Positions 10,256 through 61,470 of a DNA stretch of 61,470 nt are shown piece after piece. Numbering within the stretch: position 1 is the stretch's first letter; each line of letters begins with the position of its first letter. A program made the position numbers and the translations under genes. The notes beneath the pieces were generated by a model. It worked only from the letters and a program-made list of their open reading frames with translations, did not search any database and was not told where the DNA came from. Origin of the DNA: a virus; the IMG/VR virus record IMGVR_UViG_3300034200_001057, positions 1-61,470 of that record. One strand, written 5' to 3'.

Positions 10256-10319
10256 TACGCTCCGAAATGAAAAGTGGCCCCCGCCGACTTGCGACGAGGG
10301 CCTGTAAATTAACTACTAA

Positions 10320-10787: not shown

Positions 10788-10848
10788 ATTGATTATTCCT
10801 TTAATTCTTTAGCGATAGCAGGGGCATTACGCCCCCACCATCAGTTTA

Positions 10849-12201: not shown

Positions 12202-12383
12202 GACATTCCTATGGTTTTATACTAAACGTTACTCCCCTTTCTCCCAGGGTTTTGGGTACAACTGTGCTGTTTGGTTTGTTGAGCTGAGAAACGATCGATG
12301 GATCGTTGGCTGGCTACGTGATAACGCGAGCCGGATTCAATGGAACCGTTCACACTATCGCCTGATAATTCGAATATGCAGAA

Positions 12384-14679: not shown

Positions 14680-14752
14680 CCGATGACGTCAAAATAAGAC
14701 CAGTTAGTTGCAATCATAGAACAAGTGCCTAATACCCGGATAGTCATATTCC

Positions 14753-19263: not shown

Positions 19264-19885
19264 TACCTAACTCCTCTAACCAATTGCGACAAATTACTTC
19301 TAAGGCTTCACCAGTTGAGGTAACTCCCTTAGCCTTACTTATTCCAATTGCTTTTCTAATTACTACCTCTTGCTCTATAGAGACAGGGAATGACATCGTA
19401 AGTACGTTATCTGTTGTTTTATTATCGTCATTCGCCTTTTCCGGCACATCGTCACCGGCTTCGACCATAGCTTTAATCTGTACCTCAGCGAATTCGCTCT
19501 CAGTAAATCCGAGCATCTCTACTGTAAAACCTTCGGAAGATAGTTCCTCAATTTCGAGCTGAAGCAATTCTGAATTCCAGGCCGCATTTAGCGGGAGCTT
19601 ATTATCAGCAATTGATAGAGCCTTAGCCTGAGCATCTGTTAGATAGTCTAGAATAATGCATGGTACTTTTTCTAAATTAAGAAGGTGTGCCGCTTCAAGT
19701 CGACCATGCCCCGCAATTATTGTCTTATCCGATTTAATTAGGATTGGATTCGTAAACCCGAACTCTCGAATAGAGGCCGCGATCTGTTGAACCTGTTGAG
19801 GCGAATGACTTCTTGTGTTGCGTATGTATGGAACGAGCTCATTGATTGCAACTTGCTCAATCTTTAACGCCTTATTTTTCTGCAT
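19250..19885 (-). CDS. ParB-like protein
   Basis: 211 residues. N-terminal ParB domain: INELVPYIRNTRSHSPQQVQ, REFGFTNPILIKSDKTIIAG, HGRLEAAHLL. This subgroup is usually found fused to or beside phage DNA methyltransferases, but no methyltransferase is present. The C-terminal half is acidic and helical. It is coupled to the PAPS-reductase-like gene (14-base overlap), giving an order ParB, PAPS reductase-like, ParB, cupin. A packaging or DNA-marking role is possible but unproven. Confidence 0.82.
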   Translation of the reverse strand: MQKNKALKIEQVAINELVPYIRNTRSHSPQQVQQIAASIREFGFTNPILIKSDKTIIAGHGRLEAAHLLNLEKVPCIILDYLTDAQAKALSIADNKLPLNAAWNSELLQLEIEELSSEGFTVEMLGFTESEFAEVQIKAMVEAGDDVPEKANDDNKTTDNVLTMSFPVSIEQEVVIRKAIGISKAKGVTSTGEALEVICRNWLEELGNEAE

Positions 19886-36058: not shown

Positions 36059-37021
36059 ATGAAAACAGCAGAGCAATTAAAACACGAAGCAGAGCAAGCA
36101 AAGAAAGCAGCAGAACGCGAGTTCCAAACATCAGAGTACCCACGACTAGGAAAAGCAGCATACACCGGACTCGCTCATGCTCTTGAGCAACAAGCCGAGG
36201 TACTATCTCAACCAGCACCAGAGCCCAAAGACTCAAACAGCTACGAAGAGCGACGAGCGGCAAGGCTCGAAAGACTCCGACGCCGTGCGGCACATCTTCG
36301 AGTTGAAGCAGCAAGGGCAGATGTTCGAGCCCATGACATTGGAAGAAACATCCCTTTCGGTCAGCCGATTCTAGTTGGTCACCACTCCGAGCGAGGACAT
36401 AGAAACGCAATCGAGAAAATGCATCGTTCCTACGAGAAGGGGCGAGAGCTACGAGATGCCGCAAGCGATGCAGCACATGCAGCAAGTGCAGCGGAAAAGA
36501 ACAATGCTATATCTTCAGATGACCCAAGAGCCATCGAGAAGCTATCGCAGAAAATCGCGCATCTCGAAAAGGAACGCGAGGACATGAAAGCCTTTAACAA
36601 GTTGATGAAGAAGAACGACATCGAGGGCATGAAGGCGCTAGGGTTCTCAGAGGAGAGAATTCACAAGCTCTTGAATCCTCAGTTTTCCTACTACGGAAAA
36701 GGCTTTCGCCCCTATGAGCTTTCTCTGTGTGGTGCAGAGATACGCCGCTGTAAAGCACGGATTGCCGAGATTCAGCGAAATCAACAAAGTACGGTAATCA
36801 ATCACACCGCTTCATGGTTCAAGGCGTTCGAGGACCAAGGCGAGAATCGTATATGCTTCACCTTCGACGGCAAGCCAGCCGAGGAAGTTCGCAATGTGCT
36901 AAAATCCCGAGCTTTCAAGTGGTCACCATACCGCACCGCATGGGTTCGCATGATTAACGCATCGGGCCGATACGCAGCAAAGGACATCATTGCAGAACTG
37001 ATAAAGCTTAAAGGCGAATAA
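36059..37021 (+). CDS. DUF3560 domain protein
   Basis: 320 residues, ATGGAGGCAC upstream. The core at ~60-125 (YEERRAARLERLRRRAAHLR then ARADVRAHDIGRNIPFGQPI and LVGHHSERGHRNAIEK) is the DUF3560 signature. A Lys/Glu coiled coil follows, and the C-terminal ~80 residues (FKAFEDQGENRICFTFDGKP ... LKSRAFKWSPYRTAWVRM) resemble the end region found with DUF3560 in plasmid proteins. Widespread on mobile elements; biochemical role unknown. Confidence 0.9.
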   Translation: MKTAEQLKHEAEQAKKAAEREFQTSEYPRLGKAAYTGLAHALEQQAEVLSQPAPEPKDSNSYEERRAARLERLRRRAAHLRVEAARADVRAHDIGRNIPFGQPILVGHHSERGHRNAIEKMHRSYEKGRELRDAASDAAHAASAAEKNNAISSDDPRAIEKLSQKIAHLEKEREDMKAFNKLMKKNDIEGMKALGFSEERIHKLLNPQFSYYGKGFRPYELSLCGAEIRRCKARIAEIQRNQQSTVINHTASWFKAFEDQGENRICFTFDGKPAEEVRNVLKSRAFKWSPYRTAWVRMINASGRYAAKDIIAELIKLKGE

Positions 37022-37286: not shown

Positions 37287-38135
37287 TTGGCTTCGGTGTC
37301 TTACCTGTTGTACTCTTTGTCTGTGATTGAACGTACTTGCCTTGGATGCGCATCTCTTTTTAGAATTTCGAAGCCATCTCGCCAACAGTATTGCTCGCAA
37401 AAATGTCGTCTTGCGACAAAGCAACAGAGATTCAAGAAAGCAAATCCTAATTATTGGACTTCTTGGGAAAATGCAAACCGTGAAAAGCGTCGTGCTCAAA
37501 ATCGCAGACTCTATTCACTTGACAAAACCAAGCACATTGAACGATCAAAACAATGGCACGCTGCTAACCCCAATTACCGACGAGAATATAAGCGACGAAA
37601 CCGCGAAGCGATTAACGCTGCGAATCGCAATTATTACGCACTCAACATCGAGCAAATAAGACTCTACCAAAAAGCTTGGCGGATGAAGAATGCCGATAAA
37701 CTTCGAGCATTAGCAAAAGTATACCGAGAACGGGATATCGCTAAAACGAGAGCACAGACTCGTGAGTATCACAGAAAACACCCACACTGGAAGCGTGCAA
37801 GCGAAGCACGGCGAAGAGCCAAGAAGAAAGGTGTCACGCCGGAACAGCATAAACAAGTTCTAGAGTTTTATCGTCATGTGAGTTTAGCAGAAGTAATTGA
37901 GTGTGTTTGGTGTAATAAAAACATACCAAAAGGACTAAGACACGTTGATCACATTGTGCCGCTTTCTCGCGGAGGTCTTCATCGCAGGGATAACTTATGC
38001 TGTGCATGCTTTGATTGTAACGTGCGAAAAAGAGACAAACTTCCCGATGAATGGCTGAAGGAAATTGGGAAACCCTTAGACTACCTTGCGTCAGTGATAG
38101 CAGAATCTATAACGCCGGAATCTGCTGAAACGTAA
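37287..38135 (+). CDS. HNH endonuclease with repeat region
   Basis: Up to 282 residues; there is no ATG, so the start is TTG 37287 or GTG 37323, without a good ribosome site. An N-terminal zinc finger (CLGCASLF...QQYCSQKC), then repeated basic Asn/Tyr-rich units (NPNYRREYKRRNREAINAAN), and a C-terminal HNH domain with IECVWCNKNIPKGLRHVDHI, VPLSRGGLHRRDNL and CCACFDCNVRKRD. Convergent with the phosphoesterase gene (28-base overlap). Probably a free-standing homing-type endonuclease. Confidence 0.88.
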   Translation: MASVSYLLYSLSVIERTCLGCASLFRISKPSRQQYCSQKCRLATKQQRFKKANPNYWTSWENANREKRRAQNRRLYSLDKTKHIERSKQWHAANPNYRREYKRRNREAINAANRNYYALNIEQIRLYQKAWRMKNADKLRALAKVYRERDIAKTRAQTREYHRKHPHWKRASEARRRAKKKGVTPEQHKQVLEFYRHVSLAEVIECVWCNKNIPKGLRHVDHIVPLSRGGLHRRDNLCCACFDCNVRKRDKLPDEWLKEIGKPLDYLASVIAESITPESAET

Positions 38136-39314: not shown

Positions 39315-39339
39315 AAAAAAACCCCGGAATTTCCCAGGG
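39315..39339 (-). terminator. Rho-independent terminator for the relaxase-integrase operon
   Basis: On the minus strand CCCTGG, loop GAAATT, CCGGGG (one G-U pair) is followed by seven T. Located after the integrase stop and before the peptidase gene. Confidence 0.7.
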
Positions 39340-39459: not shown

Positions 39460-40620
39460 TTACTGCGCCGCATTCTGCGCCTTTTCCCAGTCTGATTCAG
39501 TGACAAGGAGGTAACTCTTTTGAGCTACCTTCGGGCTATTGCCTAGCCAGGCACAGACCACCGAGAGGGGGAATTGCCGCTCTAGTTCCGTTTGCCGCGA
39601 GGCCCTCATGCTGTGGAATAACCGTGCCCAGGGCTCGACATTGGCTTTCTTGAGCTTCTTGAGGAACTGGGTCCTAAGGTTCGCATTCCGCCAGCCCACG
39701 CCGGTATTTGCCGCTGCACGGTATGCGGGCTTGTTGACCACGTAGCCCTCCTTTTGCCGTAGGGGTTCCAGAACCGCACGAAGCTCAGGAAATAGGGGGC
39801 ATTCCCGCAATCCTCGCCCCTCGTGGTGCTCGACCTTGGGCTCAGGAATCCACAGTCTACCTGTACCGAAGTCCACCTGGTCCCATTTCAAGGATAGGGT
39901 TTCCGATGGTGTCCTTAGCCCGCCGTATCGAGCGAGTGCGATAATCTTTTTCCACTCGTTATCGACCACCTTCATGATGGTTTCAATCGTTGCCCTTGGC
40001 ACTTCCACGTTGTTTTTCGGAATTGCGGCCGGAGCCTTTAGGCGGTCAAAAGGCGAATAGGCGACCAGCTCCCAATCGACGGCCCAGGCAAACATCTGTT
40101 TCACAATCCGCACGTTTTTTGCAACGGTCAGAGCCTTACGGTGCCCACGCTTTAGCTTTTCCAGGTACTCCGTTGCGTGACCTCGCGTGATGTCCTTCAC
40201 GGCGATACCGGGCGGAAGGTTCTTCAGAAGTATCCCTTCCACCTGCCGCCATTGGGCGATTGTGCCGGGCTTCCGTTTACCATCCCCACCAACTTCACGA
40301 ATAAAGCGATCCGTGAGTTCAGAGAGAAGCATTCCGCTGTTCTCATCTTTTTTCATCTGTGCCACTACCTCTTCCGGTAGTAGTCCCGCTGTTCGCAATT
40401 TTGCGAGCAGCTTACCGTCAACCTTCCCGAGCCATTCCGCTGTACCTCTATCAACGCCAGAAGCCCCAGTGAGCTTTGCACTCACCAGGGCTTCCACCTT
40501 GAGTTTTACGGTCTCAGCGTCTCTCTTCGATACCTTCCCGAGTCGGATTGCTTTTCGCTTTCCGTCCTCATCGACGAACTGAATCCGCTTACCGCTCTTG
40601 TCGTTGCTGATTGATGCCAC
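39460..40620 (-). CDS. Tyrosine integrase
   Basis: 386 residues from GTG 40620 (VASISNDKSGKRIQF), which has a long GGAGAGGGAGAGG upstream. Arm-binding N-terminal region, SAM-like core-binding domain ~100-190, then catalytic residues R236 (RYGGLRTPSETLSLKW), H336 and R339 (LFHSMRAS) and Y370 (KSYLL). The usual second His/Trp position is Asn in WLGNS. N-terminal IQFVDEDGKRKAIRLGK is typical of integrases I know from Planctomycetes. Last gene of the operon with relaxase and coupling ATPase; overlaps the HTH gene by 32 bases. Confidence 0.95.
   Translation of the reverse strand: MASISNDKSGKRIQFVDEDGKRKAIRLGKVSKRDAETVKLKVEALVSAKLTGASGVDRGTAEWLGKVDGKLLAKLRTAGLLPEEVVAQMKKDENSGMLLSELTDRFIREVGGDGKRKPGTIAQWRQVEGILLKNLPPGIAVKDITRGHATEYLEKLKRGHRKALTVAKNVRIVKQMFAWAVDWELVAYSPFDRLKAPAAIPKNNVEVPRATIETIMKVVDNEWKKIIALARYGGLRTPSETLSLKWDQVDFGTGRLWIPEPKVEHHEGRGLRECPLFPELRAVLEPLRQKEGYVVNKPAYRAAANTGVGWRNANLRTQFLKKLKKANVEPWARLFHSMRASRQTELERQFPLSVVCAWLGNSPKVAQKSYLLVTESDWEKAQNAAQ
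39464..39481. repeat. Direct repeat copy 2 within integrase 3' end
   Basis: TGCGCCGCATTCTGCGCC, one base different from copy 1. Lies in the last codons of the integrase, as do many att-associated sequences. Confidence 0.55.
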
Positions 40621-40795
40621 TTTCCCTCTCCCTCTCCTCGATAAACCTTTGCAGCTCAGAAATTGAGTACCGCCATCCCCCAATTCCTATGCGTACCGCT
40701 TTGATGAGGCCACCCCTACGCAAGCTGAAGAGGGTTCTCTCGGAAATGGAAAGCATCTTTGCCGCCTCCCTCTGTGTCAGTAGTAGTGGTTCCAT
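40589..40795 (-). CDS. Excisionase-like HTH protein (MerR/AlpA type)
   Basis: 68 residues. LLTQREAAKMLSISERTLFS, LRRGGLIKAVRIGIGGWRYS and ISELQRFIEER: the helix-turn-helix_17 excisionase/AlpA pattern. Start overlaps the coupling ATPase stop (TAATG) and its end overlaps the integrase. Likely directs integrase toward excision, or controls the operon. Confidence 0.9.
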   Translation of the reverse strand: MEPLLLTQREAAKMLSISERTLFSLRRGGLIKAVRIGIGGWRYSISELQRFIEERERESGINQQRQER

Positions 40796-42111
40796 TATCC
40801 CTCCCCGTTCTTACCCTCGAAGATGTTGAATAAATCCTGATTGACCGAAACTCCTAATCGCTTCATATCCGCTAATGACATCGCTGGAAGCTCTAGGTCT
40901 CCCTCGCTGAGTAGCGGTCTGTTCTCTGTTCTCTTTAGTGTTACCGATTGCATAAACCTCGCGTTGAACTTCTGCACGACATCGGGAAAGTCGGCATACC
41001 CTTCAATCACATCCTTCTTCGCATTGGGCCACTTCAACCCATGCCGAATCTCGGACGGTAATACGTTGCGGTAGGATTTATACGAGGCCGACCACTTCCC
41101 CTCATGCGATTGAACGTCTTCACGAATTTCAACTTCACCGAGGCATTCACTCGCCCATTTTGAGGTTTCAATGCATCGTGATTTTAAGAAAACCTTGTAA
41201 TCACAGAGCCCGAGAATCTCTTCCGCAAGCTCTCGCCCGTATATGTGACGAACGCCACCGATGGTATGCGCCGACAACACAAGACCGAGACCGAACTTTC
41301 TTCCTTGCCCCGCTACGGTAGGAAGACAGTTCAATCGCTTTCCGAGCAATCGAAACTCGTCACCCATCAGCATTTTGATGTCCGTGGATTGCTTCGACAT
41401 TTCAATCGCCGCGACGCACTCAATCAAAAAGCTGAATACACCGCTCACTGCTGGAGCGTGCATCAATAGCCATTCCATAACCAACACCCCAGGTGATTCC
41501 AACGGTATGTTGAGCCTTGGAGGTTTGGCATTCATGTCCATCGCCGCGTATGCTGCCAGCGGTGCGAGTCGAGATATGACCGTTGCGGTCACATCCTTTT
41601 TTGCATCGCCACTACCTACCGACGTCTTCACCACATCGAGCCTTGCAGCTTTACGAAGATGGTTTAGTAGTTCCGGCCACATTGCCAGCCGCACCATATC
41701 CGCGAGGTATGCCTCGCCCGGTGCTATCTTGTTCAAGACTTCGCAAGAAGCAACAAATACGATCTTCGCCATGTCGCTAAAGAACCTCGATGACTCTTTC
41801 CCCGAGTCCTCGAAAATCTTTTCAGCGAATAGCTCACGAAGTAACGGATTAGCAATCAGCCCGGCATAGTTGATACCTACGCCATCAGCGTAACGCATCG
41901 TGATTGGATGAATAGGTAGCCCGCGTGGTGCGTGGTACCGATACCAGTCCACCGCCTCATCCGAATTATCGAGGTCATAGAGTGTGGCACCGTGTTGCAT
42001 CAATGAACGCTTAAAGCCTTTCATCATTGCCGACTTTCCACTCTGAGGAGCCCCTACGAGAAGAACTCTCGCAGGGGCTACTGGAATATCAAAGGGGCCG
42101 AGGTGGAGCAC
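40795..42111 (-). CDS. VirD4/TraD-like coupling ATPase, without membrane domain
   Basis: 438 residues. Walker A GAPQSGKS at 20-27, Walker B MLMGDEF ending ~253, and the coupling-protein hallmark TVAGQGRKFGLGLVLSAHT at ~265-283 (as in LLARGRKYGLSLVLG-type sequences of TraG/TraD). RFFSDMAKIVF near 110 fits the all-alpha region. It starts only 20 residues before Walker A, so the usual N-terminal two-helix anchor is missing; the adjacent gene encodes a small membrane protein that may supply it. In conjugation such ATPases pass the relaxase-DNA complex to the secretion channel. An FtsK/HerA-like role in DNA movement is the alternative. Confidence 0.83.
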   Translation of the reverse strand: MLHLGPFDIPVAPARVLLVGAPQSGKSAMMKGFKRSLMQHGATLYDLDNSDEAVDWYRYHAPRGLPIHPITMRYADGVGINYAGLIANPLLRELFAEKIFEDSGKESSRFFSDMAKIVFVASCEVLNKIAPGEAYLADMVRLAMWPELLNHLRKAARLDVVKTSVGSGDAKKDVTATVISRLAPLAAYAAMDMNAKPPRLNIPLESPGVLVMEWLLMHAPAVSGVFSFLIECVAAIEMSKQSTDIKMLMGDEFRLLGKRLNCLPTVAGQGRKFGLGLVLSAHTIGGVRHIYGRELAEEILGLCDYKVFLKSRCIETSKWASECLGEVEIREDVQSHEGKWSASYKSYRNVLPSEIRHGLKWPNAKKDVIEGYADFPDVVQKFNARFMQSVTLKRTENRPLLSEGDLELPAMSLADMKRLGVSVNQDLFNIFEGKNGEG

Positions 42112-42113: not shown

Positions 42114-42437
42114 TTACACCTTCACCGTTTTATTCATCGCACCGCCACGCACTGTTTTGCGGATAACCTTTCCGCCTTGCGTCAAGGCGGTCATGGTTCC
42201 TGCGAAGGAAACGAATCCCACCATTGCACAGAACAGAACCCACATCCAATTTGCAGTACCACCCCAGTTGAGCAATGTCATCGCAATAGTTAGAGCAACG
42301 GTCGCACTCGTACCGAACAACACAATCGCGAGTATCATGAGCCCCACTCCAATCAAGATATTGCGAACAATCCGCAACGGCGTTAGCACCATGTACCAAA
42401 ATACCGTGGATGCCCCATTCTTTATTATCTCAGTCAT
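42114..42437 (-). CDS. Membrane protein, possible detached anchor of the coupling ATPase
   Basis: 107 residues with two or three membrane helices (ILIGVGLMILAIVLFGTSAT; MTLLNWGGTANWMWVLFCAM and following) and basic ends (GGKVIRKTVRGGAMNKTVKV). ATGA overlap with the relaxase gene and 2 bases before the ATPase start. Gene order relaxase-membrane-ATPase suggests a split VirD4; this is inference from context. Confidence 0.75.
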   Translation of the reverse strand: MTEIIKNGASTVFWYMVLTPLRIVRNILIGVGLMILAIVLFGTSATVALTIAMTLLNWGGTANWMWVLFCAMVGFVSFAGTMTALTQGGKVIRKTVRGGAMNKTVKV

Positions 42438-43741
42438 AACTTTTGCCTTTCGCTTTGCTCTTGTCGTTTAATCATTTCCTGAACGATATGTTCGTTTCGA
42501 ACCTTGAGACGCCAGCCCCTTTGAGTAGCTAACGCCTTCAACTCTTCAAATTGCTTCTTGCTCTTAATATCCTGCCCATTCACCGCGACTCTCGTCTTTG
42601 GTGGAATGTTCACCTTGGGTTTTGCTTCCTTGTAAGCCCTTTGACCTACTGCCGCCGCGTGTTTTAGTGACTTCAAATGAGTACGCCGCATCACCTTCAT
42701 TGCGTGCTTATGACGATCCCACCGCGATGGGTCTTTTGTATCGTCGATAAACTTCTGCACGTCGTTGACCGTCATCTTCATCTGTTCGCGATTACGTGAG
42801 ACCTTGTAAGCCTTCACGTACTCACCAACTGGAATCTTCAGATAGTCCTCAACAATCGCCTGGAGTCTCCCACGCTCATGCTCTTGAACCTTCTTTGCTT
42901 CCACCTTTGGCCCGTGAGTATGGTATGCCTCACGTTGCCACTCCTTGGATTTCTCCTCGAAGTTCACATCCTCGACCTTGGCCTTCTTCTCCCGAGTGTT
43001 CTGATAGGCATAAGCCTTTGCAGATGCACTACGGGACTTAATGTTTTCCTGCTTCAGATACTCTTCAGCTCTCTGCGCTCTCGTGTTGTCACGCTCTTGA
43101 GTAACGCCCTCAACTACCGCCATACCGCGAGAGTCAATCGACATCTTGATGCCGAATGCTTGCTCCATGCGGTCAGCGATAACGCATTGGAAGATGCGCT
43201 TGTCCCGCTCCGATACTTCAAAGAAAGTAGAGGTATCGAGACTGCGAATCTTTCCGTCCTCAGTTTGTCCGCGTTGCTCAAAGATTGAATGGCCGTGAAC
43301 CAGGCACTTCCCCTCTCGGGAAAGAACCCCGAAAGCATGAAAGCCAAGAACATTAGCTTTCTCTTTCTTATGGCCGTCAGCACCACGACGAGCGAAGATG
43401 TGTTGCTCAATTCGTTGCTCAAGAGCTTTCATCGCAGGTACCATGACCTCCGACGCTACTTTCTTAGCAACCTCAAAACCACCCGCTGCAACAAAGTTAG
43501 TGATTGAGTTATCGACTATATGCACGAGACCAACGAGGCGCTTTGCCTCATTCGCTCTTGGTGGATAGAGTCGTTTACCATCAGGGCCGAGACGATCACA
43601 AAATGCATCAGCACTCTGTTTATCGTTCTTGTACCCAAACTCGCGAGCCGCTCTAGAAAAAGCGAGGCCCTCAAATTCGAGAGCCTCGCTCGCAACTTCC
43701 TTTGCATACTCGCGGTCCATTGAACCGCTTGCACGCATCAT
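42434..43741 (-). CDS. MobF (TrwC/TraI)-like relaxase, diverged
   Basis: 435 residues. Aligns by eye with the relaxase domain of TrwC-type proteins: an FCDRLGPDGKRLYPPRANEA segment (compare LCD.R.P.TG.RL..R), the position of the usual VPKSVS motif (here IVDNSIT), FHAFGVLSREGKCLVHGHSI giving the three-His set H135, H149, H151, and KAYAYQNTREKKAKVEDVNF at the domain end. A single N-terminal Tyr (Y12 in DREYAKE) lies where TrwC has its second catalytic Tyr; the usual first ~15 residues are absent. There is no helicase domain. It would nick and carry a strand in transfer, or act in rolling-circle replication. The altered motif may mean changed or lost activity. Confidence 0.75.
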   Translation of the reverse strand: MMRASGSMDREYAKEVASEALEFEGLAFSRAAREFGYKNDKQSADAFCDRLGPDGKRLYPPRANEAKRLVGLVHIVDNSITNFVAAGGFEVAKKVASEVMVPAMKALEQRIEQHIFARRGADGHKKEKANVLGFHAFGVLSREGKCLVHGHSIFEQRGQTEDGKIRSLDTSTFFEVSERDKRIFQCVIADRMEQAFGIKMSIDSRGMAVVEGVTQERDNTRAQRAEEYLKQENIKSRSASAKAYAYQNTREKKAKVEDVNFEEKSKEWQREAYHTHGPKVEAKKVQEHERGRLQAIVEDYLKIPVGEYVKAYKVSRNREQMKMTVNDVQKFIDDTKDPSRWDRHKHAMKVMRRTHLKSLKHAAAVGQRAYKEAKPKVNIPPKTRVAVNGQDIKSKKQFEELKALATQRGWRLKVRNEHIVQEMIKRQEQSERQKL

Positions 43742-43956
43742 GATGTAAGGGATTCCTTGCCGTGGAATTCGGCGAGTGCCAATCTCACCTGTTCCTTGAT
43801 GAACGATTTTGAGTAATGTTCATCCACCAGCCAGCGAATCAATTCACTGACTGTTATCCCTCTCTCTCGTGCCTCGTCGGAAAGATTCAAAGCCCTTTGT
43901 GGACTAAGTTTACAACCGACGTTCACGAGGAGAGGTTTCTCCCCGTCAACCTTCAT
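43738..43956 (-). CDS. Ribbon-helix-helix protein, possible relaxase accessory
   Basis: 72 residues from ATG 43956 (AGGTAGG upstream). LLVNVGCKLSPQRALNLSDE then ARERGITVSELIRWLVDEHY: strand-helix-helix of CopG/TrwA/TraY type. ATGA overlap with the relaxase gene. In plasmids such proteins bind oriT and repress the operon; the same is inferred. Confidence 0.82.
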   Translation of the reverse strand: MKVDGEKPLLVNVGCKLSPQRALNLSDEARERGITVSELIRWLVDEHYSKSFIKEQVRLALAEFHGKESLTS

Positions 43957-44133
43957 AAAACCTACCTTTTTGTCAAAGATCAGTTGTCGAGCTGGTGGGA
44001 CCAACCCACCAAGCACGACTGATTATTTCCAAATGTTGGGGTAATTCAACCCTGTTTCAGAAAGTTTCCGGGAATTTTTCCGGGTAACCGTACACTGACT
44101 AGCGACTACGTTACCCCGCGATACAATGCGGAT
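43957..44133. promoter_or_regulatory. Divergent control region, candidate oriT
   Basis: 177 bases between the transfer operon and the XRE gene. It holds a perfect inverted repeat TGGTGGG-ACCAA-CCCACCA at 43993-44011, and repeated TTTCCGGGAA / TTTTTCCGGGTAA words near 44064-44086. TACAAT at ~44119 sits so close to the XRE ATG (44134) that the transcript may be nearly leaderless. MobF plasmids keep oriT next to RHH and relaxase genes with a similar hairpin. Confidence 0.5.
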
Positions 44134-44868
44134 ATGGACCCAGAAACAGCAGAACAACAAATTCACTCGGGCGTAACGCTACTCAAAGACCGACGCGAGC
44201 ACCTCCGCTATCTCCTAAAGAGAATCAGGGAGAATAAGGCCGGAGGTCGAAGCGGGGCATCCGTGGCCCGACTCATGAAAGTGCGACAGAGCTATCTTGT
44301 GAAAGTGGAATCAGGGGCAATTGAGGCCAGCGAGGAATACGTAACTAAGTTCAGCGAGGCGCTAGAGCTTCCACAACCTTGGGCAGACTTTCTCCTTTTT
44401 CTTGCTCAACAGGGACGATTCGCACTCCATAAGCTGCTCGATACCTCTCCACTTCAAACACAACAGAGCTACTTACAGCAGAGTCTCTTTCAGATGATGC
44501 CGACCCGCATTTACATCGGGGCACGGGCATCGATACCCATCACGGAGCTTCATCGCGTTGTGGCTCTTAACCCGATGCTGATTGTCACCCGCGACTATCT
44601 TCGCCGAGAAATTGCCGCTCTCGATGTACCGAAAGAGTCCGTTCCATTTCTTCAGTACAGCCCTAATCCCATGTGTCTTGATTATTCAGCGTTAGCCGAA
44701 AAGGATAAACAGTTCTTTCCTAGGATGTCCACCGACCAGTTCATTTACGAAAAGACATTGGTAGTGATTGATGTGTGGGAGTGGCAGATACTAGAGACAA
44801 AATGGGTTGAGGAGTTCACTGAGAGTTTTGATCGATTACGGGTACTTCAGAAACCATTTAATTCTTGA
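44134..44868 (+). CDS. XRE-family transcription regulator
   Basis: 244 residues. HTH domain at ~22-75 (LRYLLKRIRENKAGGRSGAS, VARLMKVRQSYLVKVESGAI), then a ~170-residue domain I do not recognise (LHRVVALNPMLIVTRDYLRR ... FIYEKTLVVIDVWEWQILET). Divergent from the relaxase-integrase operon, so probably its main regulator or a lysogeny repressor. Confidence 0.82.
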   Translation: MDPETAEQQIHSGVTLLKDRREHLRYLLKRIRENKAGGRSGASVARLMKVRQSYLVKVESGAIEASEEYVTKFSEALELPQPWADFLLFLAQQGRFALHKLLDTSPLQTQQSYLQQSLFQMMPTRIYIGARASIPITELHRVVALNPMLIVTRDYLRREIAALDVPKESVPFLQYSPNPMCLDYSALAEKDKQFFPRMSTDQFIYEKTLVVIDVWEWQILETKWVEEFTESFDRLRVLQKPFNS

Positions 44869-45274: not shown

Positions 45275-46030
45275 CTAAGAAGCAAGAGCCAACGTGGTTT
45301 CTTGCGGCAACAGATGCGCCGATAGCTTCATCGTCAATGATGCGTATCGTTGCGGATTCGCGTTACTCTTTGGCTTCAGTGCCGAAGTGAACGCGTTGAA
45401 CAAACTCCAGAGAGTACGATCCTCGAACTCTTTGAATCCTGGAACTCTCCACTCTGTGAGGACCTTGGGAATATCTTGCGAAGTGATAATGTCTTGATCC
45501 ATCGCACGAACAATCAGCGATTCCGCCTTCATGTCCGTTACGTGCTCATTACGCATTACCGCGATACGCTTTGATTCCTCTTCCTGGAATTGCGAGAGCC
45601 TCGATACTGCCTCACCGATGTCGATTCCGAATCGGAGTGCGCCGTGTTTGGTATGCTTCCGTGTGACCAATAAATCCCCGTAGAAACTGAGATTGTCACA
45701 AACCAGAACTCTTGAACCGGCCACGAACCCGATTGGGAAACTCTTATCGACTGAGTTTCTTATCCCCACTGATAACGTAACGCCATCAGCGAGAGTAGAC
45801 GCAAGGTCAAGCGTTCCAAAGAATCGCTTCCCTTCCTTTGCAACAGTAAGCTGCTCACGCCGTACCTCGAAACCAAAATCACGCATCGTATCCATCGCTT
45901 TGATGTATACATCGATGTGTGACACTGGATACCACCGCCCTTGAGGTGGTGGAGCTTCGTACTTGATGAGTTCAGCAACCGTGACAAGCTCAGTACCGCT
46001 ACCACGTAGCAGGGTACTCTGTGTTTCCAT
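45275..46030 (-). CDS. DUF932 protein (phage/plasmid-related)
   Basis: About 251 residues from ATG 46030 (GGGAGA upstream). FGFEVRREQLTVAKEGKRFF, GVTLSVGIRNSVDKSFPIGF, VAGSRVLVCDNLSFYGDLLV and TRKHTKHGALRFGIDIGEAV: the DUF932/TIGR03299 order. Common on plasmids, ICEs and phages with transfer genes; biochemical role unknown. Confidence 0.9.
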   Translation of the reverse strand: METQSTLLRGSGTELVTVAELIKYEAPPPQGRWYPVSHIDVYIKAMDTMRDFGFEVRREQLTVAKEGKRFFGTLDLASTLADGVTLSVGIRNSVDKSFPIGFVAGSRVLVCDNLSFYGDLLVTRKHTKHGALRFGIDIGEAVSRLSQFQEEESKRIAVMRNEHVTDMKAESLIVRAMDQDIITSQDIPKVLTEWRVPGFKEFEDRTLWSLFNAFTSALKPKSNANPQRYASLTMKLSAHLLPQETTLALAS

Positions 46031-46075
46031 CTGCATGTCTCCCAATGAGAATTGGGAAACTGTCCATTGATAACC

Positions 46076-48031: not shown

Positions 48032-48556
48032 TTACCCTCTGAGCCGCCCTGCCTCTGCGAGGACGTTCTTCGAGTATTGGATTGACTCTTTACACCTCCC
48101 AATACACTTAGGGCCGCCATTGTAGCTTTGGAGTGCCTTTACTTCGTTGCCGTTGTAGGTATCCAACTCTTCTCGCAGTATTTGCGCCGAGCATCGAAGG
48201 TTCTTGATTGGGTCCCATAGCTCATCGGGCTTTCTGAGGCCACATCGCTTTGTATTGAATGGCATTACTTGGCCGAGACCGCGAGCCCCCACATGCGATA
48301 CTGCCCGAGGGTTCTTCCTGCTCTCGACATGCACCAGGGCATGAAGCATATGGCGAGGTATCCCTTCCCTATCCGCTGCCTCATCAATCAGACCGTCGAT
48401 GATGGGCCGACTTATCGCCACTGGTCGCCCAAAGTTCCTCGCCGACTCTAGAGAGAGCCGAGCCGACATAGGAATACCGCCATTCTTAGCCCAGAAAAGG
48501 CCGAGGCCAATGGCCGCAATTAGCAACCACTGGCCCCCATTGTTTTGCGAACTCAT
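48032..48556 (-). CDS. Lytic transglycosylase (SLT/VirB1-like)
   Basis: 174 residues. Membrane/signal segment at ~10-22 (WLLIAAIGLGLFW), then the SLT domain: ALVHVESRKNPRAVS with catalytic E78, GARGLGQVMP at 90-99, and LQSYNGGPKCIG. Cuts peptidoglycan between sugar residues. In a phage it may aid entry or lysis; next to lipoprotein genes and a transfer module it could also act like VirB1. Start overlaps the stop of the 50-residue membrane gene (ATGA). Confidence 0.88.
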   Translation of the reverse strand: MSSQNNGGQWLLIAAIGLGLFWAKNGGIPMSARLSLESARNFGRPVAISRPIIDGLIDEAADREGIPRHMLHALVHVESRKNPRAVSHVGARGLGQVMPFNTKRCGLRKPDELWDPIKNLRCSAQILREELDTYNGNEVKALQSYNGGPKCIGRCKESIQYSKNVLAEAGRLRG

Positions 48557-52217: not shown

Positions 52218-54299
52218 CTAATTCTGTTGAGCTTTCCACGCCAGCCGGCTTGATTCCCTAGTTGACCATTGGAGATCATCTTGAAGAGCTGGTACACCTT
52301 TCCAGTGAATTGCACCGTTGGAAGTAACCCACTCAAGAGATGTGGAAGGGATCAAAAGTCCACCGTCAACAACAGCCCCAAAGAAGGCAGTTGAACTTTC
52401 AATCCTTGAGGCTTCAATCGCTACACTACCGACAATGATGGTAGCAGGGTAGAAGGTGCCACCGCTTGCAATCGCGAATGCTTCAATGACGTTTGATGCC
52501 GACACCGTCGCACTAAAGAACTGAGCCGACGATGTTGGAGCCCCAGTAACAATCGCAACCGAGCCGGCAGTGACCGAAGGATTGAAGAACGTAGTTCCCG
52601 ATACTGGTGCCGCTGTTACTACGTCATTCCTTGCCGATACCGTAGCGTTAAAGAAAGAGGTACTCGCCGACGGTGCCGCCGTTGCGATTGTCTGCCCCTG
52701 TAGGATTGTGGCAGGGTAGAACGACGCCGACGAAGCTGGGGCCGCTGTCGAAATAGTTACTACCCCCGGTGTGACCGTTGCGTTGTAAAACGCTGTCGAG
52801 GCCGAAGGGGATGCGGTAACAATTGCCCCCGATGCCGAGACCGTCGCATTGTAGAAAGCAGTAGAGGCAGTTGGTGCAGCGGTCACAATCGTTGCTGAAC
52901 CTTGTGACACTGTCGCATCGTAGAAAGTAGTTCCCGCTGCTGGTGCCGCCGTAGTGATAGTAACCGCCCCAGCCGACACTGTAGCATTATAGAATGTAGT
53001 GCTCGCAGTCGGTGTTGCGGTTGATATCGTTGCTACACCAGGCGTAACCGTAGCATTGTAGAACGATGTCGATGCCGTTGGTGCATTAGTAACTATAAGA
53101 GCCCCGCCGTTGCTGACGACAGCGTCATAGAAGGCAGTAGAAGACGAAGGGGCCGCAGTAGTTACGGTAACAGTGCCAGGAGTTACTGTTGCATTATAGA
53201 AAGATACTGAGGATGTTGGTGCCGCAGTAACAATCGCGCTACTAGCCGAGACCGTCGCATTGTAGAAGCTAGTGTCTGAGACTGGCGATGCCGTTACAAT
53301 CGTACTCTGTGCAGTAATTGCCGCATTGTAGAAAGTGGTTGAAGCTGATGGTGCATCAGTGACAATCGTCGCCGCACCAGAGCTGACCGTAGCATTGTAG
53401 AACTCTGTCGATGCCGTTGGTGCCGCTGTGGTGATGTTCTGAATACTCCCACCACTATCTGCCACAAGGATGAGAGGCGATGGTCGAGGCGAAAGAATCT
53501 CAAAGGGAGTGCTGATGAATCGCTGAATTTCCGCATCGCTCCACCTACGAGCCGACGTAAGAGCAAAATCAAATTCGCCGGGGATGTAAGTCGCTCCACT
53601 GTTATCACTAAGGATTTGCCGGCCAATCGTTACGCCGCGAGTATCGTAGGTGATTGAGCCCGAGTATGTAGCAGAGGATTGAACAGATGAAACTCTTGTG
53701 TTCGTTCGCCGGTCAAAAACGAATAGGTCAATAAAATCACCAGACGCCCATCGAGCCACGAGAATATACGGGACATTTGCCGTGAGCGAGCAATTACCGT
53801 TCGGTGTTGTCTGCTGAGTACCGCTGATCTTTATTCGAGCTTGAGTATCGGTAAACGTATTCCAGACTTGACTGCGAACACCCCATGATGCATCGGCAAA
53901 ATCATTGAGCTTGGCGTAGTAGTACGCTCCATCGGTAGGGTTTGCCGTAATCAGGACACCGATAACGATGGTGATTGCATTGGTTGGTAACTCTTGTGTA
54001 ACGCTTCTATCCCCCGCGAACCGAGAGGTAGTACCGTTAAACGATACGGTTCCGCGATTGTTCCAAGTAGTATCTGTACCCGTAAGCGGAAGAGTGCCGC
54101 CTAGAGCATCGAAAGCTCTATCGCCGCCACGCTCATTAAGAAAGTAGGCACAAGCAAGCCCCTGAGTAAGGGGATGCGTAAAGTCAACCCTTGTCCCTAT
54201 GGCCGGCTTATCTCGAAGCTGCTTTCTCCTCGCTACAATCTTCGGTCTGCCCGCCGAGGCTTCAGCCCCGCTTTGTGGCGCGAGTAAAGTTAGCAGCAT
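52218..54299 (-). CDS. Tail appendage protein: LamG-like domain plus ~15 short repeats
   Basis: 693 residues. Residues ~35-265 look like a concanavalin/LamG domain (GTVSFNGTTSRFAGDRSVTQ, YDTRGVTIGRQILSDNSGAT). Residues ~285-640 are about 15 tandem repeats of ~24 residues around the pattern ATI.TAAPTASTxFYNATVS. Such repeats probably form a stiff beta-stalk. The end (SLEWVTSNGAIHWKG) is distinct. Likely a receptor-binding or surface-adhesion appendage. Confidence 0.78.
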   Translation of the reverse strand: MLLTLLAPQSGAEASAGRPKIVARRKQLRDKPAIGTRVDFTHPLTQGLACAYFLNERGGDRAFDALGGTLPLTGTDTTWNNRGTVSFNGTTSRFAGDRSVTQELPTNAITIVIGVLITANPTDGAYYYAKLNDFADASWGVRSQVWNTFTDTQARIKISGTQQTTPNGNCSLTANVPYILVARWASGDFIDLFVFDRRTNTRVSSVQSSATYSGSITYDTRGVTIGRQILSDNSGATYIPGEFDFALTSARRWSDAEIQRFISTPFEILSPRPSPLILVADSGGSIQNITTAAPTASTEFYNATVSSGAATIVTDAPSASTTFYNAAITAQSTIVTASPVSDTSFYNATVSASSAIVTAAPTSSVSFYNATVTPGTVTVTTAAPSSSTAFYDAVVSNGGALIVTNAPTASTSFYNATVTPGVATISTATPTASTTFYNATVSAGAVTITTAAPAAGTTFYDATVSQGSATIVTAAPTASTAFYNATVSASGAIVTASPSASTAFYNATVTPGVVTISTAAPASSASFYPATILQGQTIATAAPSASTSFFNATVSARNDVVTAAPVSGTTFFNPSVTAGSVAIVTGAPTSSAQFFSATVSASNVIEAFAIASGGTFYPATIIVGSVAIEASRIESSTAFFGAVVDGGLLIPSTSLEWVTSNGAIHWKGVPALQDDLQWSTRESSRLAWKAQQN

Positions 54300-54307
54300 G
54301 GCTTACC

Positions 54308-54469
54308 TTATAAGCTACTTAGCTGCGCTATTGTCGCTTCCGTTTCAATTATCTCCGCGTCAAGATTGACAATGCGTTCAATGTCGCCATTGGATTCTGC
54401 TTGAATCTTAGACTCGCGCAACCGTATTAAGCGATTAGTCAGTATTCGAATCAAAAACTCTACATTCAT
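54308..54469 (-). CDS. Small coiled-coil protein
   Basis: 53 residues from ATG 54469. MNVEFLIRILTNRLIRLRES then acidic helix DIERIVNLDAEIIETEATIA. Located between two appendage genes; could be a trimerisation or assembly factor. Phage proteins of this length and layout are frequent at this place. Confidence 0.65.
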   Translation of the reverse strand: MNVEFLIRILTNRLIRLRESKIQAESNGDIERIVNLDAEIIETEATIAQLSSL

Positions 54470-54476
54470 ATTTCAC

Positions 54477-57110
54477 CTACCAGAAAAGAAGACATCGAAA
54501 GCATTCTTGGAACGATGCACGGTTGAGCCATAGGTATTTCAACCCGTCCCTCGTCGTGATGATTTCCATACGGTTTCCGATGATCGCAGTCGGAGCCGCG
54601 TACGGGTACATCGATCCGCCGTGCACTTTCCCGGTTACGATGTCGAGGTACATAACTCTTTGTGTGCCATCTTTGTGGAAGTAAATCCTATTACCACCGT
54701 CGTAAGCCGTCATCGATCCTGATGTTAGCGTTTCTGTAAGTGGTGCTGTGTTGATAGCAGAAATACGATCCGTAGCCAGGTTCAAACGTTCAAACCCGTA
54801 CGCACCGCCACCACGAGCGATAAACATATACCGCCCACGATAGGAAGCTAACGAAGGATTGAATCCCCAATTTGCATTTGTGCCGGTTCCCTTAGCGTTG
54901 CCTTCGAGTATCGCATACTGAGTCGTTCCCGCAGTTGGTGCCGTGATTGTGGAAACAGTCAACGTATTGGAAGTGTTCGAGGCTATAATTACCTCAATAG
55001 GTCCACCCGTTGAAGACAAGATACGAACGCGCCGACCGGCATAAATATTAACCGCCCAGCTTTTGCCCGTGTCCTGAATCGTGGTTGTTGTTTGTGTACC
55101 AGTTGCAACACCAAAGTCTAGAGCACCGATTGCAGTCCCGGTTGCGATAGAGTACCGACTGACTCCGTTAGTAGGTGCTGTAACGGTGGAGGAGAATGTA
55201 AGCGTTGTTGCCGTATTGCTCGTGACGCGAACTATCTGCCCTGCACCTGCACCACTGGCTGCTGTATATGCTGCTGTATTCATATACACTAATCGGCCAG
55301 CATGTTCGTTAGTTGTCCAGTTCTTGGTGAAGTCGGTTAGCGTTGTCGTAGACTGCGCCCCGGCAAGAGTCACACCAGCGGGAGTACCACCCATTGTGTA
55401 AGTGAATGTCGTCGCACTCGGAACAGTTGCAATTGCCGTGTTGGTTACGTTGAAGTTTGCGTCTGTAGCGCCGCGTACAGTTACTAAGTCACCCACACGG
55501 AACTGATGAGCATGGGCAGTTGTTACTGTGGCAGTCGTTGAAGCATTACTCAACGAAGCGATTGCCACTGGTTGATGCCCACCAACCGTCGCCGCAGCAC
55601 TTCGAGCAATACCCCAATCTTGCTGACGTCCCCACGTTACTACGTGTGAGTCCATGTTATGCATTACAATTCCAGCATTACCACCGCTCACCATGTAAAG
55701 CTTCTCGGTATCACCTTGGATAGCGTAGACACTCGTCGAGTCCGGGTTCGTCGTCCACGGTCTCAATACAGTTAGTGCGGTGCCCGTATTGCTGACAATC
55801 GGCTGCACTTGACCTACGCCAGTTCCCGCTAAGATGCGAACAGAGTAATTTGCCCATCGGTTCGTTGCCCAGGATTTAGTAGAGTCAGTAAGCGTTGTCG
55901 ATGCCCCCGCTGTGGCAGTCCCCGCATCGAAACCAAGAATTAAGTAACGGCTAGTCGTATCGGGAGCTGTTCCAGCCGATGACCAAGTAAGAGTGTTTGC
56001 GGTGTTGCTCGCAATCTGGCGAATCTGCCCCGCTGCCGCACCTGAGAAGATAAATACCCAGTATCCCGCCCATTGGTTTGTGGTCCAATTAGCAACGTCA
56101 ACACCGTGAGACGCATCAACAAGCGTAGTTGTAGTTCCACCAGTAGCGATTCCACGTTCCCAGATTGAAGAATTCTCGGTAGTTCTTTCAATAGAGAAGT
56201 CCGTCAAGGCTGCTGCAAAAATGTTGGTATAGGAGGGTAGAACGTACCAAGTATCAGTCAGTATGCAGTACGCTTGGTAAGTATAGAAGGGCGTTGCTGC
56301 CGCACCGGAAGCACACAACACCATACCGCTCTGAATACGAAAGACCGAAGTAGAATCTGGCGTTGTTGTCCATGCAGAGTCTACCGTGACCACTTGCGAT
56401 TCAATGCTGTAAAACGACTGAGAACCTGCTGTGGCGGAAATTGCTGGAGAGAATACTGCCGGGTTATTCCAAGGCTTATTCATCTGAGCTGTATCGCCAA
56501 TCGTCAACACCGTTGCCGTGTTGCTGAGGATGCGTCGAATCTGACCAGCACTGCCGGCAGGGGTATTAGCGACTCTCAGTGCGTAGCCCGCGTACTGGTT
56601 AACTGTAAACGTTTTGAGCGTATCCGTGATTGAAATTGCTCCCGCCGTGTTCGATACAGCGGTCGGGATGCCACTATCATGTACTACGGGCTCAGCGACA
56701 GCCGTGATAGTTCTTCGTTGCCCTGCGCCTGTTCCCGAGACAATTACTACGTCGTGGCCGACGAGACTGTTTTGCGTTACAGCCGCAATCTGAAGTGTTG
56801 TAGAAGTAGCCGCGATGACTCTATCTTCTACTCCCAACGCTCCTGCGAACTTTAGTGCGCTAAAAGTCAGAGGGGCGACCGCTGGAGACTGTAGCTGTTG
56901 GTACATATCCGCCCAGGTGTCGTACCGTGAGAAGTTTGTGGCAGATATCAGGTAGTAAATGTAACGGCCATGGTCCGAGGGCATGAAGTTGCCGTTATCC
57001 GCCGAACAGGATGAGGAAATTGCAGACGATACGGCGGGAGCAAAACGAGTCCATTCCCACGTTGGTAAATCGACTTGACGTGATAGTGTGTTCTTGTTGA
57101 GTGCTGGCAT
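54477..57110 (-). CDS. Large repetitive tail/appendage protein
   Basis: 877 residues. At least six repeats of ~60-70 residues with the pattern TTTL.D..K.WATN.WA.Y.VRI..GTG.GQ...I.SNT.T.LT, alternating with beta-propeller-like segments (RGRYMFIARGGGAYGFERLN; YDGGNRIYFHKDGTQRVMYL). Such proteins form large beta-rich surface appendages on phage tails. Gene order, between small virion proteins and the LamG protein, agrees. Confidence 0.78.
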   Translation of the reverse strand: MPALNKNTLSRQVDLPTWEWTRFAPAVSSAISSSCSADNGNFMPSDHGRYIYYLISATNFSRYDTWADMYQQLQSPAVAPLTFSALKFAGALGVEDRVIAATSTTLQIAAVTQNSLVGHDVVIVSGTGAGQRRTITAVAEPVVHDSGIPTAVSNTAGAISITDTLKTFTVNQYAGYALRVANTPAGSAGQIRRILSNTATVLTIGDTAQMNKPWNNPAVFSPAISATAGSQSFYSIESQVVTVDSAWTTTPDSTSVFRIQSGMVLCASGAAATPFYTYQAYCILTDTWYVLPSYTNIFAAALTDFSIERTTENSSIWERGIATGGTTTTLVDASHGVDVANWTTNQWAGYWVFIFSGAAAGQIRQIASNTANTLTWSSAGTAPDTTSRYLILGFDAGTATAGASTTLTDSTKSWATNRWANYSVRILAGTGVGQVQPIVSNTGTALTVLRPWTTNPDSTSVYAIQGDTEKLYMVSGGNAGIVMHNMDSHVVTWGRQQDWGIARSAAATVGGHQPVAIASLSNASTTATVTTAHAHQFRVGDLVTVRGATDANFNVTNTAIATVPSATTFTYTMGGTPAGVTLAGAQSTTTLTDFTKNWTTNEHAGRLVYMNTAAYTAASGAGAGQIVRVTSNTATTLTFSSTVTAPTNGVSRYSIATGTAIGALDFGVATGTQTTTTIQDTGKSWAVNIYAGRRVRILSSTGGPIEVIIASNTSNTLTVSTITAPTAGTTQYAILEGNAKGTGTNANWGFNPSLASYRGRYMFIARGGGAYGFERLNLATDRISAINTAPLTETLTSGSMTAYDGGNRIYFHKDGTQRVMYLDIVTGKVHGGSMYPYAAPTAIIGNRMEIITTRDGLKYLWLNRASFQECFRCLLFW

Positions 57111-59468: not shown

Positions 59469-61470
59469 TTATGTTTCCACTACTCCCGATGCACTCCATC
59501 CTATTGTCCCTGATGCTCGATTCCCATCGGAATCAAACATGTACGCATAAAACCCAGTGGGGTTAGGGATATCTTGCCATCTTGCCGTAGCTGTCCTGCC
59601 ACTGTTGGCCTGTGCAGTAGCGTTGACTTGGATAACATCGACGAAATCCAAGTTGTACGGAATAAATGTACCATCTGCATCACTACCTGACACTATAGCA
59701 AATCCAGAGTCCTGCCTCGTTGTGACACCTATTTGCATATTGATTTGCGAAACCTGAACCATTCCCGATGGGGTTCCTATACGAACGGAAGGCTTAACTC
59801 TCGCCAATGCGTCCATTGCCGTAGGTGTTCGGCTTCCATAGAGCGTAGTTCTTACGTAGCGAAAACCAGCAAGGGCATGAGTGGCGGTTTTTATACCCGA
59901 CCCCGAGGATAGGTTGGTTCGAACCTGCACTACATCCCAATTAGCGGTAGGTGATGCCCTAGTTTCAACGGTATACGATAGAGAAACCTGGTCTGTAGCG
60001 TCAACTTGAACGACATCGAACGTGAATAGACCATTGCACGATGTAATGGCCTTACCACAATCCGTTACCCACTCAGCAACACCCTCGACTCCAGCCGGAG
60101 CTGGCTGTAACCACTCGCTATAACCGGCATCGATGAACCCTTGAATGGTTGTGAATCCATTGTCGAGAAAGTGAGCCTCCCAAGTCTCTCCAGATTGAGC
60201 TGGTAGGCATACGGTAGTTCCGTCCAATAGGTCCACCGCATTGCTTAACGTAGCATCCCCAGGGTCTAGTACATCACCGCCGACCTCATACCGCAGTTTG
60301 ACGTAACGGTAGTTGTTTCCATTTTGAGAACTAATGCCAGGAGCGCCGCGAGTCCATCGGTCGGCTTCCGAGTACCTCCAAAATAGCTGAGGGATAACTA
60401 CGGACGGGGATTCAAGCTCAGTAGCGGTATACGTTGTAGTTATGGCCGCCGAAGTGAACACCGCCCCTAGGTCAACAGCCCACTCAGCTATTCCAATGTT
60501 TGAGCTTCCAGGCTCTAGCCAATACTCATATCCATCATCAATAAGGTCCTGAATCGTATTAGCCCCATTAGCAGTAAAGTGGCTTTGATACGTCTCGGAG
60601 GTGTTTGCCGGCCCTACTACGCTAATACCATCGGTCTCTATACCAAGGTTGGATATGGTTAATGCGTTAGCTACTTCAAGAACCTGGTTGTATTGGAGAA
60701 CAAATCCGTTCGGTTGATACACCGATAGTAAGGTTGACGCAGCGGGGGCGACGTTACCAGCACTATCAACGGATGTAACCCAGTACGTATAGGTTCCAGC
60801 ATTCGGTTCAACCAGGGTAAAGAACGTAGCGTCCACGCTCCCCAGTAGTACCGCTGAGGTAAAGATGTCCCCTCGATAGACTCTGTATTTAACAACCGGC
60901 ATTGCACCACCAACGGGCGGTTGCCAATCAATGATGGTAGTTCCGTTAAGCTCCCGAGCGAATAGGTTGAGCACTGGACCATGCGTACCTATTGCAACGA
61001 TGTGACTACCAGCGGTACCCGTCGTTCCCGCCGAATTGATTGCAGCAATCCAAAATATCCTACTCCCCGACCACTCTCCTTTGACCCGATATTTTAACGC
61101 TGCAACCCGAGCAACGAATGTTCCTGATGCGTAGGATGCACCGTGCCTTATTTCGTAATCAATTATCGGAAGGTCGGATGATGGCTTTGACCAGTCAAGA
61201 TTTACATACTCACCCTCTCCCGACGATGTGATTGTTGGTGCCGCTGCTCCGTTTACAGTCACGACTACACTTCCCGCAGTACCCGAATTGCCGACGATGT
61301 CGGTTGCCCGTACCCAGAATGTTCGAGCACCGGACCACGTACCTAGAACCTTAAACTTTAGAGCATCGAGTATTCCGACCGAGACACCAGAGGCAAAATC
61401 AGTCCCGTACCGAACCTCATAACTCTTAATTGCAAACGAGCCCGACGCTGCCGACCATGACAACAAAACC
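59469..61470 (-). CDS. Tail tip attachment protein (gpJ-like), C-terminal part
   Basis: Continuation of the gene that begins at 2288; no stop or new start intervenes across the contig ends. Contains fibronectin type III-like domains (VNLDWSKPSSDLPIIDYEIR; TIIDWQPPVGGAMPVVKYRV) and then two related ~130-residue domains (SETYQSHFTANGANTIQDLI ... and GETWEAHFLDNGFTTIQGFI ...) that look like a tandem duplicated receptor- or carbohydrate-binding unit. The final part (~150 residues) is unique. Confidence 0.92.
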   Translation of the reverse strand, partial: VLLSWSAASGSFAIKSYEVRYGTDFASGVSVGILDALKFKVLGTWSGARTFWVRATDIVGNSGTAGSVVVTVNGAAAPTITSSGEGEYVNLDWSKPSSDLPIIDYEIRHGASYASGTFVARVAALKYRVKGEWSGSRIFWIAAINSAGTTGTAGSHIVAIGTHGPVLNLFARELNGTTIIDWQPPVGGAMPVVKYRVYRGDIFTSAVLLGSVDATFFTLVEPNAGTYTYWVTSVDSAGNVAPAASTLLSVYQPNGFVLQYNQVLEVANALTISNLGIETDGISVVGPANTSETYQSHFTANGANTIQDLIDDGYEYWLEPGSSNIGIAEWAVDLGAVFTSAAITTTYTATELESPSVVIPQLFWRYSEADRWTRGAPGISSQNGNNYRYVKLRYEVGGDVLDPGDATLSNAVDLLDGTTVCLPAQSGETWEAHFLDNGFTTIQGFIDAGYSEWLQPAPAGVEGVAEWVTDCGKAITSCNGLFTFDVVQVDATDQVSLSYTVETRASPTANWDVVQVRTNLSSGSGIKTATHALAGFRYVRTTLYGSRTPTAMDALARVKPSVRIGTPSGMVQVSQINMQIGVTTRQDSGFAIVSGSDADGTFIPYNLDFVDVIQVNATAQANSGRTATARWQDIPNPTGFYAYMFDSDGNRASGTIGWSASGVVET
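61336..61470. repeat. Contig terminal overlap, right copy
   Basis: Right-hand copy of the 135-base overlap with bases 1-135, one substitution. Removing one copy gives a circle of about 61,335 bp. Confidence 0.9.

Follow-up and report, generated by a model that had tools for sequence, protein, structure and literature searches.

A temperate tailed phage genome carrying a diverged MobF relaxase within a predicted mobilization operon

The window analysed here is a viral DNA of 61,470 bases, comprising positions 1-61,470 of IMG/VR record IMGVR_UViG_3300034200_001057, and it encodes both the structural genes of a tailed phage and, on its minus strand, an operon that contains a relaxase gene. The reading favoured here, which we regard as probable though well short of certain, is that this is an integrative temperate siphophage possessing its own mobilization operon, and that it could be mobilized via the type IV secretion channel of a helper element. 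An initial annotation, made from the sequence alone, had pointed to the relaxase and had offered three explanations for it: a mobilizable phage-plasmid, or a relaxase turned either to rolling-circle replication or to packaging.

The open reading frame (ORF) at 42434-43741 (minus strand; 435 aa, ATG at 43741 and stop at 42434) encodes a diverged MobF relaxase consisting of the transesterase domain only. The Pfam TrwC model (PF08751, cut-off 25 bits) matched its N-terminal part (264 aa tested) at 52 bits (E 9.8e-14; 53.9 bits in another run), and the NCBIfam MobF model NF041492 matched the full-length protein at 60.7 bits (E 1.6e-16), a score below the equivalog cut-off of 100 bits that marks the protein as a diverged member. 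TrwC went undetected when the whole ORF was put through an ordinary Pfam scan, apparently owing to the HMMER filters, and a sequence search of the PDB with the relaxase gave no match. Comparison by hhalign of a profile built from the relaxase and its relative in a second phage (see below) with five aligned MobF proteins gave a probability of 97% (E 1e-10).

The predicted fold leads to the same assignment. An AlphaFold2 model of residues 1-290 reached a pLDDT of 74 and a pTM of 0.73; the underlying alignment took in two canonical MobF sequences and the fold evidence is therefore partly borrowed, while a model made from two sequences only, with the canonical MobF proteins left out, was poor (pLDDT 45) and was discarded. 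In a Foldseek search of the PDB with the N-domain model the top 26 matches were all MobF relaxases (best E 1.9e-9), including TrwC, F TraI, pKM101 TraI and pCU1 TraI, and the comparison with TrwC (1qx0) gave a TM of 0.69; the outcome that the initial annotation had named as refuting its claim, a lack of any structural match to HUH relaxases, thus did not occur. No viral protein in BFVD matched the model structurally at E 0.001 or better. Since the profile comparison and all 26 of the top fold matches point to MobF, the assignment is far beyond chance, and Pfam, NCBIfam, profile and fold agree that this is a real, if diverged, TrwC/TraI-type relaxase, an identity for which the sequence evidence stands independently of the structure model. 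A C-terminal helicase domain is common but not universal in MobF relaxases; none was found here, residues 274-435 being without any Pfam domain.

The active site departs from the canonical one in several respects, most of which had been noted previously. H149 and H151 align with the HxH pair of TrwC, and this pair is common to the phage and its relative. H135, which had been taken as the third member of the histidine set, instead sits three residues before the canonical first-histidine column, which is occupied by G138 in the best alignment; the spacing is thus H-x13-HxH, whereas TrwC and the related phage both show the canonical metal motif, H-x10-HxH (HETSRERDPQLHTH in TrwC, HASTREGHASYHVH in the related phage). 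By number all three histidines are there, but the first is out of strict register. The replacement of the conserved VPKSVS by VDNSIT was borne out by alignment to TrwC, which has APKSVS at this position, and the related phage has LSPSVS. MobF proteins usually carry two N-terminal catalytic tyrosines, in YY pairs. As reported earlier, Y12 is the only tyrosine in the corresponding region; it is kept in the related phage and, although its alignment to a specific tyrosine of TrwC is ambiguous, Tyr12 is the candidate catalytic residue.

The genes surrounding the relaxase are consistent with a role in mobilization. The order in the operon is ribbon-helix-helix (RHH)-like protein, relaxase, two-transmembrane protein, type IV coupling protein (T4CP), excisionase-like protein and integrase, all on the minus strand. 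From the RHH gene to the excisionase gene, neighbours overlap by 1-4 bases or are separated by 2, and the frames of excisionase and integrase overlap as well. The small RHH-like protein (43738-43956; 72 aa if read from the ATG at 43956, with 44016 as the start of the longest frame) is a candidate accessory protein of the TrwA/MobC type and autoregulator; its match to the MatP_C RHH model is weak (E 8.5e-4, below the cut-off), and the stop of its gene overlaps the relaxase start (ATGATG, gap -4). At the other end the relaxase stop overlaps, via ATGA, the start of a gene for a 107-aa protein (42114-42437) with two membrane helices predicted from hydropathy peaks at residues 27-45 and 67-85, which may be a detached membrane anchor of the coupling protein.

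The coupling protein itself (40795-42111) is a TrwB/VirD4-type ATPase, matching PF10412 at 67.7 bits (E 1.1e-18) and PF12696 at 41.7 bits (E 1.3e-10), and a two-sequence profile matched the PDB entry for TrwB (1e9r) at E 2e-5. It has a Walker A motif, GAPQSGKS, and a Walker B motif, MGDEF, containing DE. Its alignment to TrwB begins after the membrane domain of the latter; no N-terminal transmembrane segment is present in the protein, and the open frame reaches at most 6 codons further upstream. A match of the T4CP to the defence protein mad8 in PADLOC (E 1.9e-5) was rejected as a generic ATPase match, the TrwB models scoring far better. The T4CP stop overlaps by one base (TAATG) the start of a gene for an excisionase/MerR-like helix-turn-helix (HTH) protein (40589-40795; 68 aa; TIGR01764, E 5.1e-6, 26.8 bits and so just under the cut-off of 28.8), which is followed by a tyrosine integrase (39460-40683; PF00589, E 2.9e-7; phrog_1, E 1.7e-30). 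VirB4 (PF03135) was not found, the other mating-pair formation genes not having been searched one by one, and a helper element would therefore be needed for transfer. An integrase and a relaxase in one operon with no VirB4 fit the layout of an integrative mobilizable element (IME).

A second phage carries the same operon. It is represented by two overlapping contigs (G001 and G003) that are 99.998% identical over 42.7 kb and belong to one genome, which is syntenic with the window and has relaxase, T4CP, excisionase-like gene and integrase at the same place and in the same order, with similar gene overlaps; a short RHH-like ORF upstream of the relaxase was also recognised by eye. Identity between the two phages is high for structural proteins (terminase 79%, major tail protein 76%, a 1004-aa tail protein 58-62%, the others compared mostly 50-76%) and lower for the operon (relaxase 29-31%, T4CP 39-40%, integrase 30%). 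Y12, the HxH pair, Walker A and the DE of Walker B are nevertheless common to both. Intact frames and motifs at 29-40% identity argue for selection for function over a long time, and from this comparison the operon is a long-maintained trait of the lineage. A peptide-pattern search of IMG/VR with relaxase and T4CP recovered only the two contigs of the related phage, and a search for lineage members by tail genes yielded just one fragment, whose length of 5.6 kb is insufficient to reveal the operon.

The window is a complete, closed genome. A direct terminal repeat of 135 bp (1-135, matched at 61336-61470 with 99.3% identity) and a tail-gene ORF that stays open across the junction of contig end and start show it to be closed, complete and circularly cut. 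In agreement with the head-tail set claimed by the initial annotation, PHROG matches on the minus strand at 7241-16441 identify major tail protein, connectors, major head protein, maturation protease, portal and large terminase, and primase (primase/polymerase-like), helicase and exonuclease genes are also encoded. With terminase, portal, capsid and tail genes and an integrase all detected, the virus is, by its gene content, a temperate, siphovirus-like tailed phage; it may be a soil phage, to judge by the metagenome series of the related contigs. Of the proposed mobilizable phage-plasmid the first half is supported by the T4CP two genes downstream of the relaxase, the two-transmembrane protein between them and the RHH-like gene upstream. 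The second half is not: the single tyrosine integrase (one match only in the whole-record search), an excisionase-like gene in the same operon and the lack of a ParA-type partition ATPase (AAA_31, not found in the genome) make an integrative phage more likely. The phage-plasmid label is therefore not supported, although replication initiators were not searched exhaustively. A ParB-domain protein is encoded at 19250-19885.

On the favoured reading, excision by Xis and Int from the same operon would yield circular phage DNA, and the RHH protein and relaxase would bind an origin of transfer (oriT) beside the operon, near 43957-44133, where the relaxase would nick one strand via Tyr12. The two-transmembrane protein would keep the coupling ATPase at the membrane, and the ATPase would pass the relaxase with its DNA to the type IV channel of a co-resident conjugative element. 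Two ways of spreading would thus be open to the phage, as virions or, from a lysogen that need not lyse, by conjugal mobilization. Of this account, the identities of relaxase, coupling protein and integrase, the arrangement of the operon, its conservation in the second phage and the completeness of the genome are shown by sequence, while the oriT, nicking, the anchoring role, the need for a helper and transfer itself are inferred. A strong imperfect hairpin in the gap upstream of the operon (43979-44019, minus strand; core TGGTGGG-TTGGT-CCCACCA) is a candidate for the oriT or for an RHH operator. It is the third-strongest 41-nt hairpin in a genome-wide scan in which the four strongest all lie inside or just upstream of the operon; a z of -6.4 was obtained for 43985-44025, a segment chosen after inspection.

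Two other hairpins were seen on the minus strand in this region. At 43652-43692, within the 5' portion of the relaxase coding sequence, a strong hairpin with a perfect 8-bp stem (AGCGAGGC/GCCTCGCT) precedes a run of T and resembles a terminator or attenuator inside the gene. Downstream of the integrase, a terminator-like hairpin with a T run (39322-39339) possibly ends the operon transcript; the genome total of terminator-like sites is no higher than in shuffles.

The alternative that survives best, though it is unlikely, is that operon and integrase together descend from an IME that inserted into an ancestor of the phage, and that they now remain as a passenger or as a relic in decay. IMEs do pair integrase and Xis with a relaxase (PMC5704250), the genome has no second integrase, and the displaced first histidine and changed VPKSVS motif could be read as signs of decay. 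However, decay would not have left the gene order the same between two phages whose operon proteins share 29-40% identity, nor the ORFs and most of the catalytic motifs undamaged, and codon composition matches that of the phage: relaxase and T4CP have the same GC and GC3 as the structural genes, and the operon is therefore not a recent foreign insert. An IME origin would be compatible with the favoured explanation; it is decay that is not well supported.

Slightly less likely again is the suggestion that the relaxase is a rolling-circle replication initiator, nicking the phage DNA so that single-strand or concatemer synthesis can begin, with the T4CP-like ATPase as a replication translocase. 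HUH nucleases of the relaxase and Rep types share their chemistry, and a relaxase lacking a helicase domain could borrow the phage helicase. Against this, it was MobF models specifically that matched, no Rep protein appears among the 26 best fold matches, and a TrwB/VirD4-type ATPase with a membrane partner plays no part in known rolling-circle replication. The phage encodes primase/polymerase-like, helicase and exonuclease genes of its own. Action of the relaxase and ATPase in packaging or ejection of phage DNA is more doubtful still. Both are DNA-handling proteins, and the ATPase is a member of a hexameric DNA-pump family, but a complete set of terminase, portal and head genes is present, the operon sits with Xis and Int away from the packaging genes, and the membrane partner suggests the cell envelope. 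Both of these explanations, put forward in the initial annotation, are weaker because they leave the coupling protein and its membrane partner unexplained, neither process needing a type IV coupling ATPase, and because primase, helicase and terminase are already encoded by the phage. Finally, although this is a metagenomic assembly with genes unusual for phages, the idea that a fragment of a plasmid or integrative conjugative element was mis-joined to a phage contig was rejected as barely credible, given the circular closure by the terminal repeat and the presence of the operon at the same place in the related phage, on two overlapping contigs.

Several points weigh against mobilization by conjugation. 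A T4CP-type ATPase could serve another role in a phage. The oriT and nic site are candidates only, the hairpin having been picked after inspection and having no clear counterpart in the related phage, and, judging by its displaced first metal histidine and the change from VPKSVS to VDNSIT, this copy of the relaxase may be weak or altered in activity. Only two genomes of the lineage were found. One scan of genome contigs with the terminase as query gave distant matches only, in Oscillospiraceae and Dehalococcoidia metagenome-assembled genomes, and so pointed to no host.

The operon resembles that of plasmid R388 in its relaxase fold, HxH pair, TrwB-type ATPase and small RHH-type gene upstream, with relaxase, coupling protein and accessory protein encoded together. 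It differs in order (RHH, relaxase, transmembrane protein, T4CP here; TrwA, TrwB, TrwC in R388), in a relaxase that lacks the helicase half and has one tyrosine rather than two pairs as well as the displaced first histidine, and in being phage-borne, with the T4CP membrane domain missing, a separate two-transmembrane gene present and no type IV secretion genes found. With IMEs it shares the linkage of integrase and excisionase to a relaxase and the lack of mating-pair formation genes (PMC5704250), but in this case a complete tailed phage makes up the entire element and brings its own coupling protein, which most mobilizable plasmids lack (PMC7434980). Coupling proteins without a membrane domain, partnered with a small membrane protein, are known, for example TraJ/TraI of pIP501 (PMC7434980). 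There, too, a soluble coupling ATPase and a small membrane protein are encoded nearby; pIP501 is a Gram-positive conjugative plasmid, however, and the likeness drawn here is one of architecture.

Phage genes mixed with relaxase or oriT functions also occur among P1-like elements, where mob or oriT was present in most derived plasmids (30 cases), mostly elements that had lost virion genes, and in only two phage-plasmids themselves (PMC10879196); two P1-related oriT carriers were later reclassified as plasmids without virion genes (PMC12977533). In contrast, the phage described here has a complete virion set and is integrative.

From these searches, canonical MobF relaxases are almost absent from phage collections. 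The relaxase gave no tblastn match in INPHARED or PLSDB at 1e-5, while that of the related phage, at E up to 1, weakly matched 12 plasmid records, 11 of them annotated MobF. A tblastn search with the TrwC domain matched 2 of 50,697 INPHARED records, both unannotated, and among 2.9 million IMG/VR contigs only two contained a canonical MobF pattern (DPQLHTH then V/A-V). So strict a pattern overlooks diverged relaxases like the present one, and the MobF counts are therefore lower bounds. One of the two contigs looks plasmid-like: genes of the TrwB and TrwC types are present, and phrog_9 detected no terminase. The other (G017; IMGVR_UViG_2866922325_000003, 42.8 kb) combines phage genes with a full-length MobF relaxase-helicase. 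As in the present phage, a MobF relaxase shares its contig with structural genes, here terminase, portal, head and tape measure, but the contig is unrelated and its relaxase-helicase is canonical and of another MobF branch. It is an independent, second candidate for a phage with MobF, either a phage-plasmid or a prophage beside a plasmid. Methyltransferase and MFS transporter genes were also seen on it, alongside those for terminase, portal, head and tape measure (L063-L065).

Other genes complete the description of the region. A divergent HTH regulator (44134-44868, plus strand; HTH_31, E 5.3e-5; HTH_3, E 6.5e-5) is a candidate repressor of the phage or the operon. Beyond it lie a weak DUF932 match (45275-46045, minus; E 2.6e-4) and an SLT lytic transglycosylase (48032-48556, minus; PF01464, E 9.3e-24); the former lies in a run of genes, between operon and SLT gene, that have no matches in the related phage. 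In that phage the first gene recognised upstream of the relaxase region is the SLT homologue, and the enzyme could serve lysis or envelope passage. Slightly past the integrase end of the operon is an HNH endonuclease (37287-38135, plus; PF14279, E 3.8e-10), and a DUF3560 protein is encoded at 36059-37021 (plus; PF12083, E 4.4e-28; phrog_6744). The MobF plasmid R388 likewise has a DUF3560 gene (L057:21174-21950), possibly by coincidence, possibly as an accessory shared by plasmid and phage. Elsewhere, a phosphoadenosine phosphosulfate reductase-like gene (18106-19263, minus; phrog_2302, E 9e-81) adjoins the ParB-domain gene, and two big ORFs of 693 and 877 aa at 52218-57110 (minus), without a Pfam or PHROG match and in a region that lacks blastp matches between the two phages, are probably variable tail or receptor-binding genes.

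Phages are normally distinguished from conjugative and mobilizable elements by their mode of travel, a divide that would be bridged by a complete temperate phage in which a mobilization operon has long been conserved. A broader view, to which we give about even weight, is that this is a lineage of complete integrative tailed phages that have long kept an apparatus dedicated to mobilization, made up of a relaxase, an accessory protein and a split coupling protein and transcribed together with the excision functions, in which virions and helper-dependent conjugation together form a stable strategy rather than a passing hybrid. If true, such a phage could enter hosts without a phage receptor and spread as a prophage, the donor not being killed. 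The system also makes a compact, split coupling protein available for study and, since the virion set is complete and the operon was kept as the lineage diverged, conjugation as a second route for a phage becomes testable.
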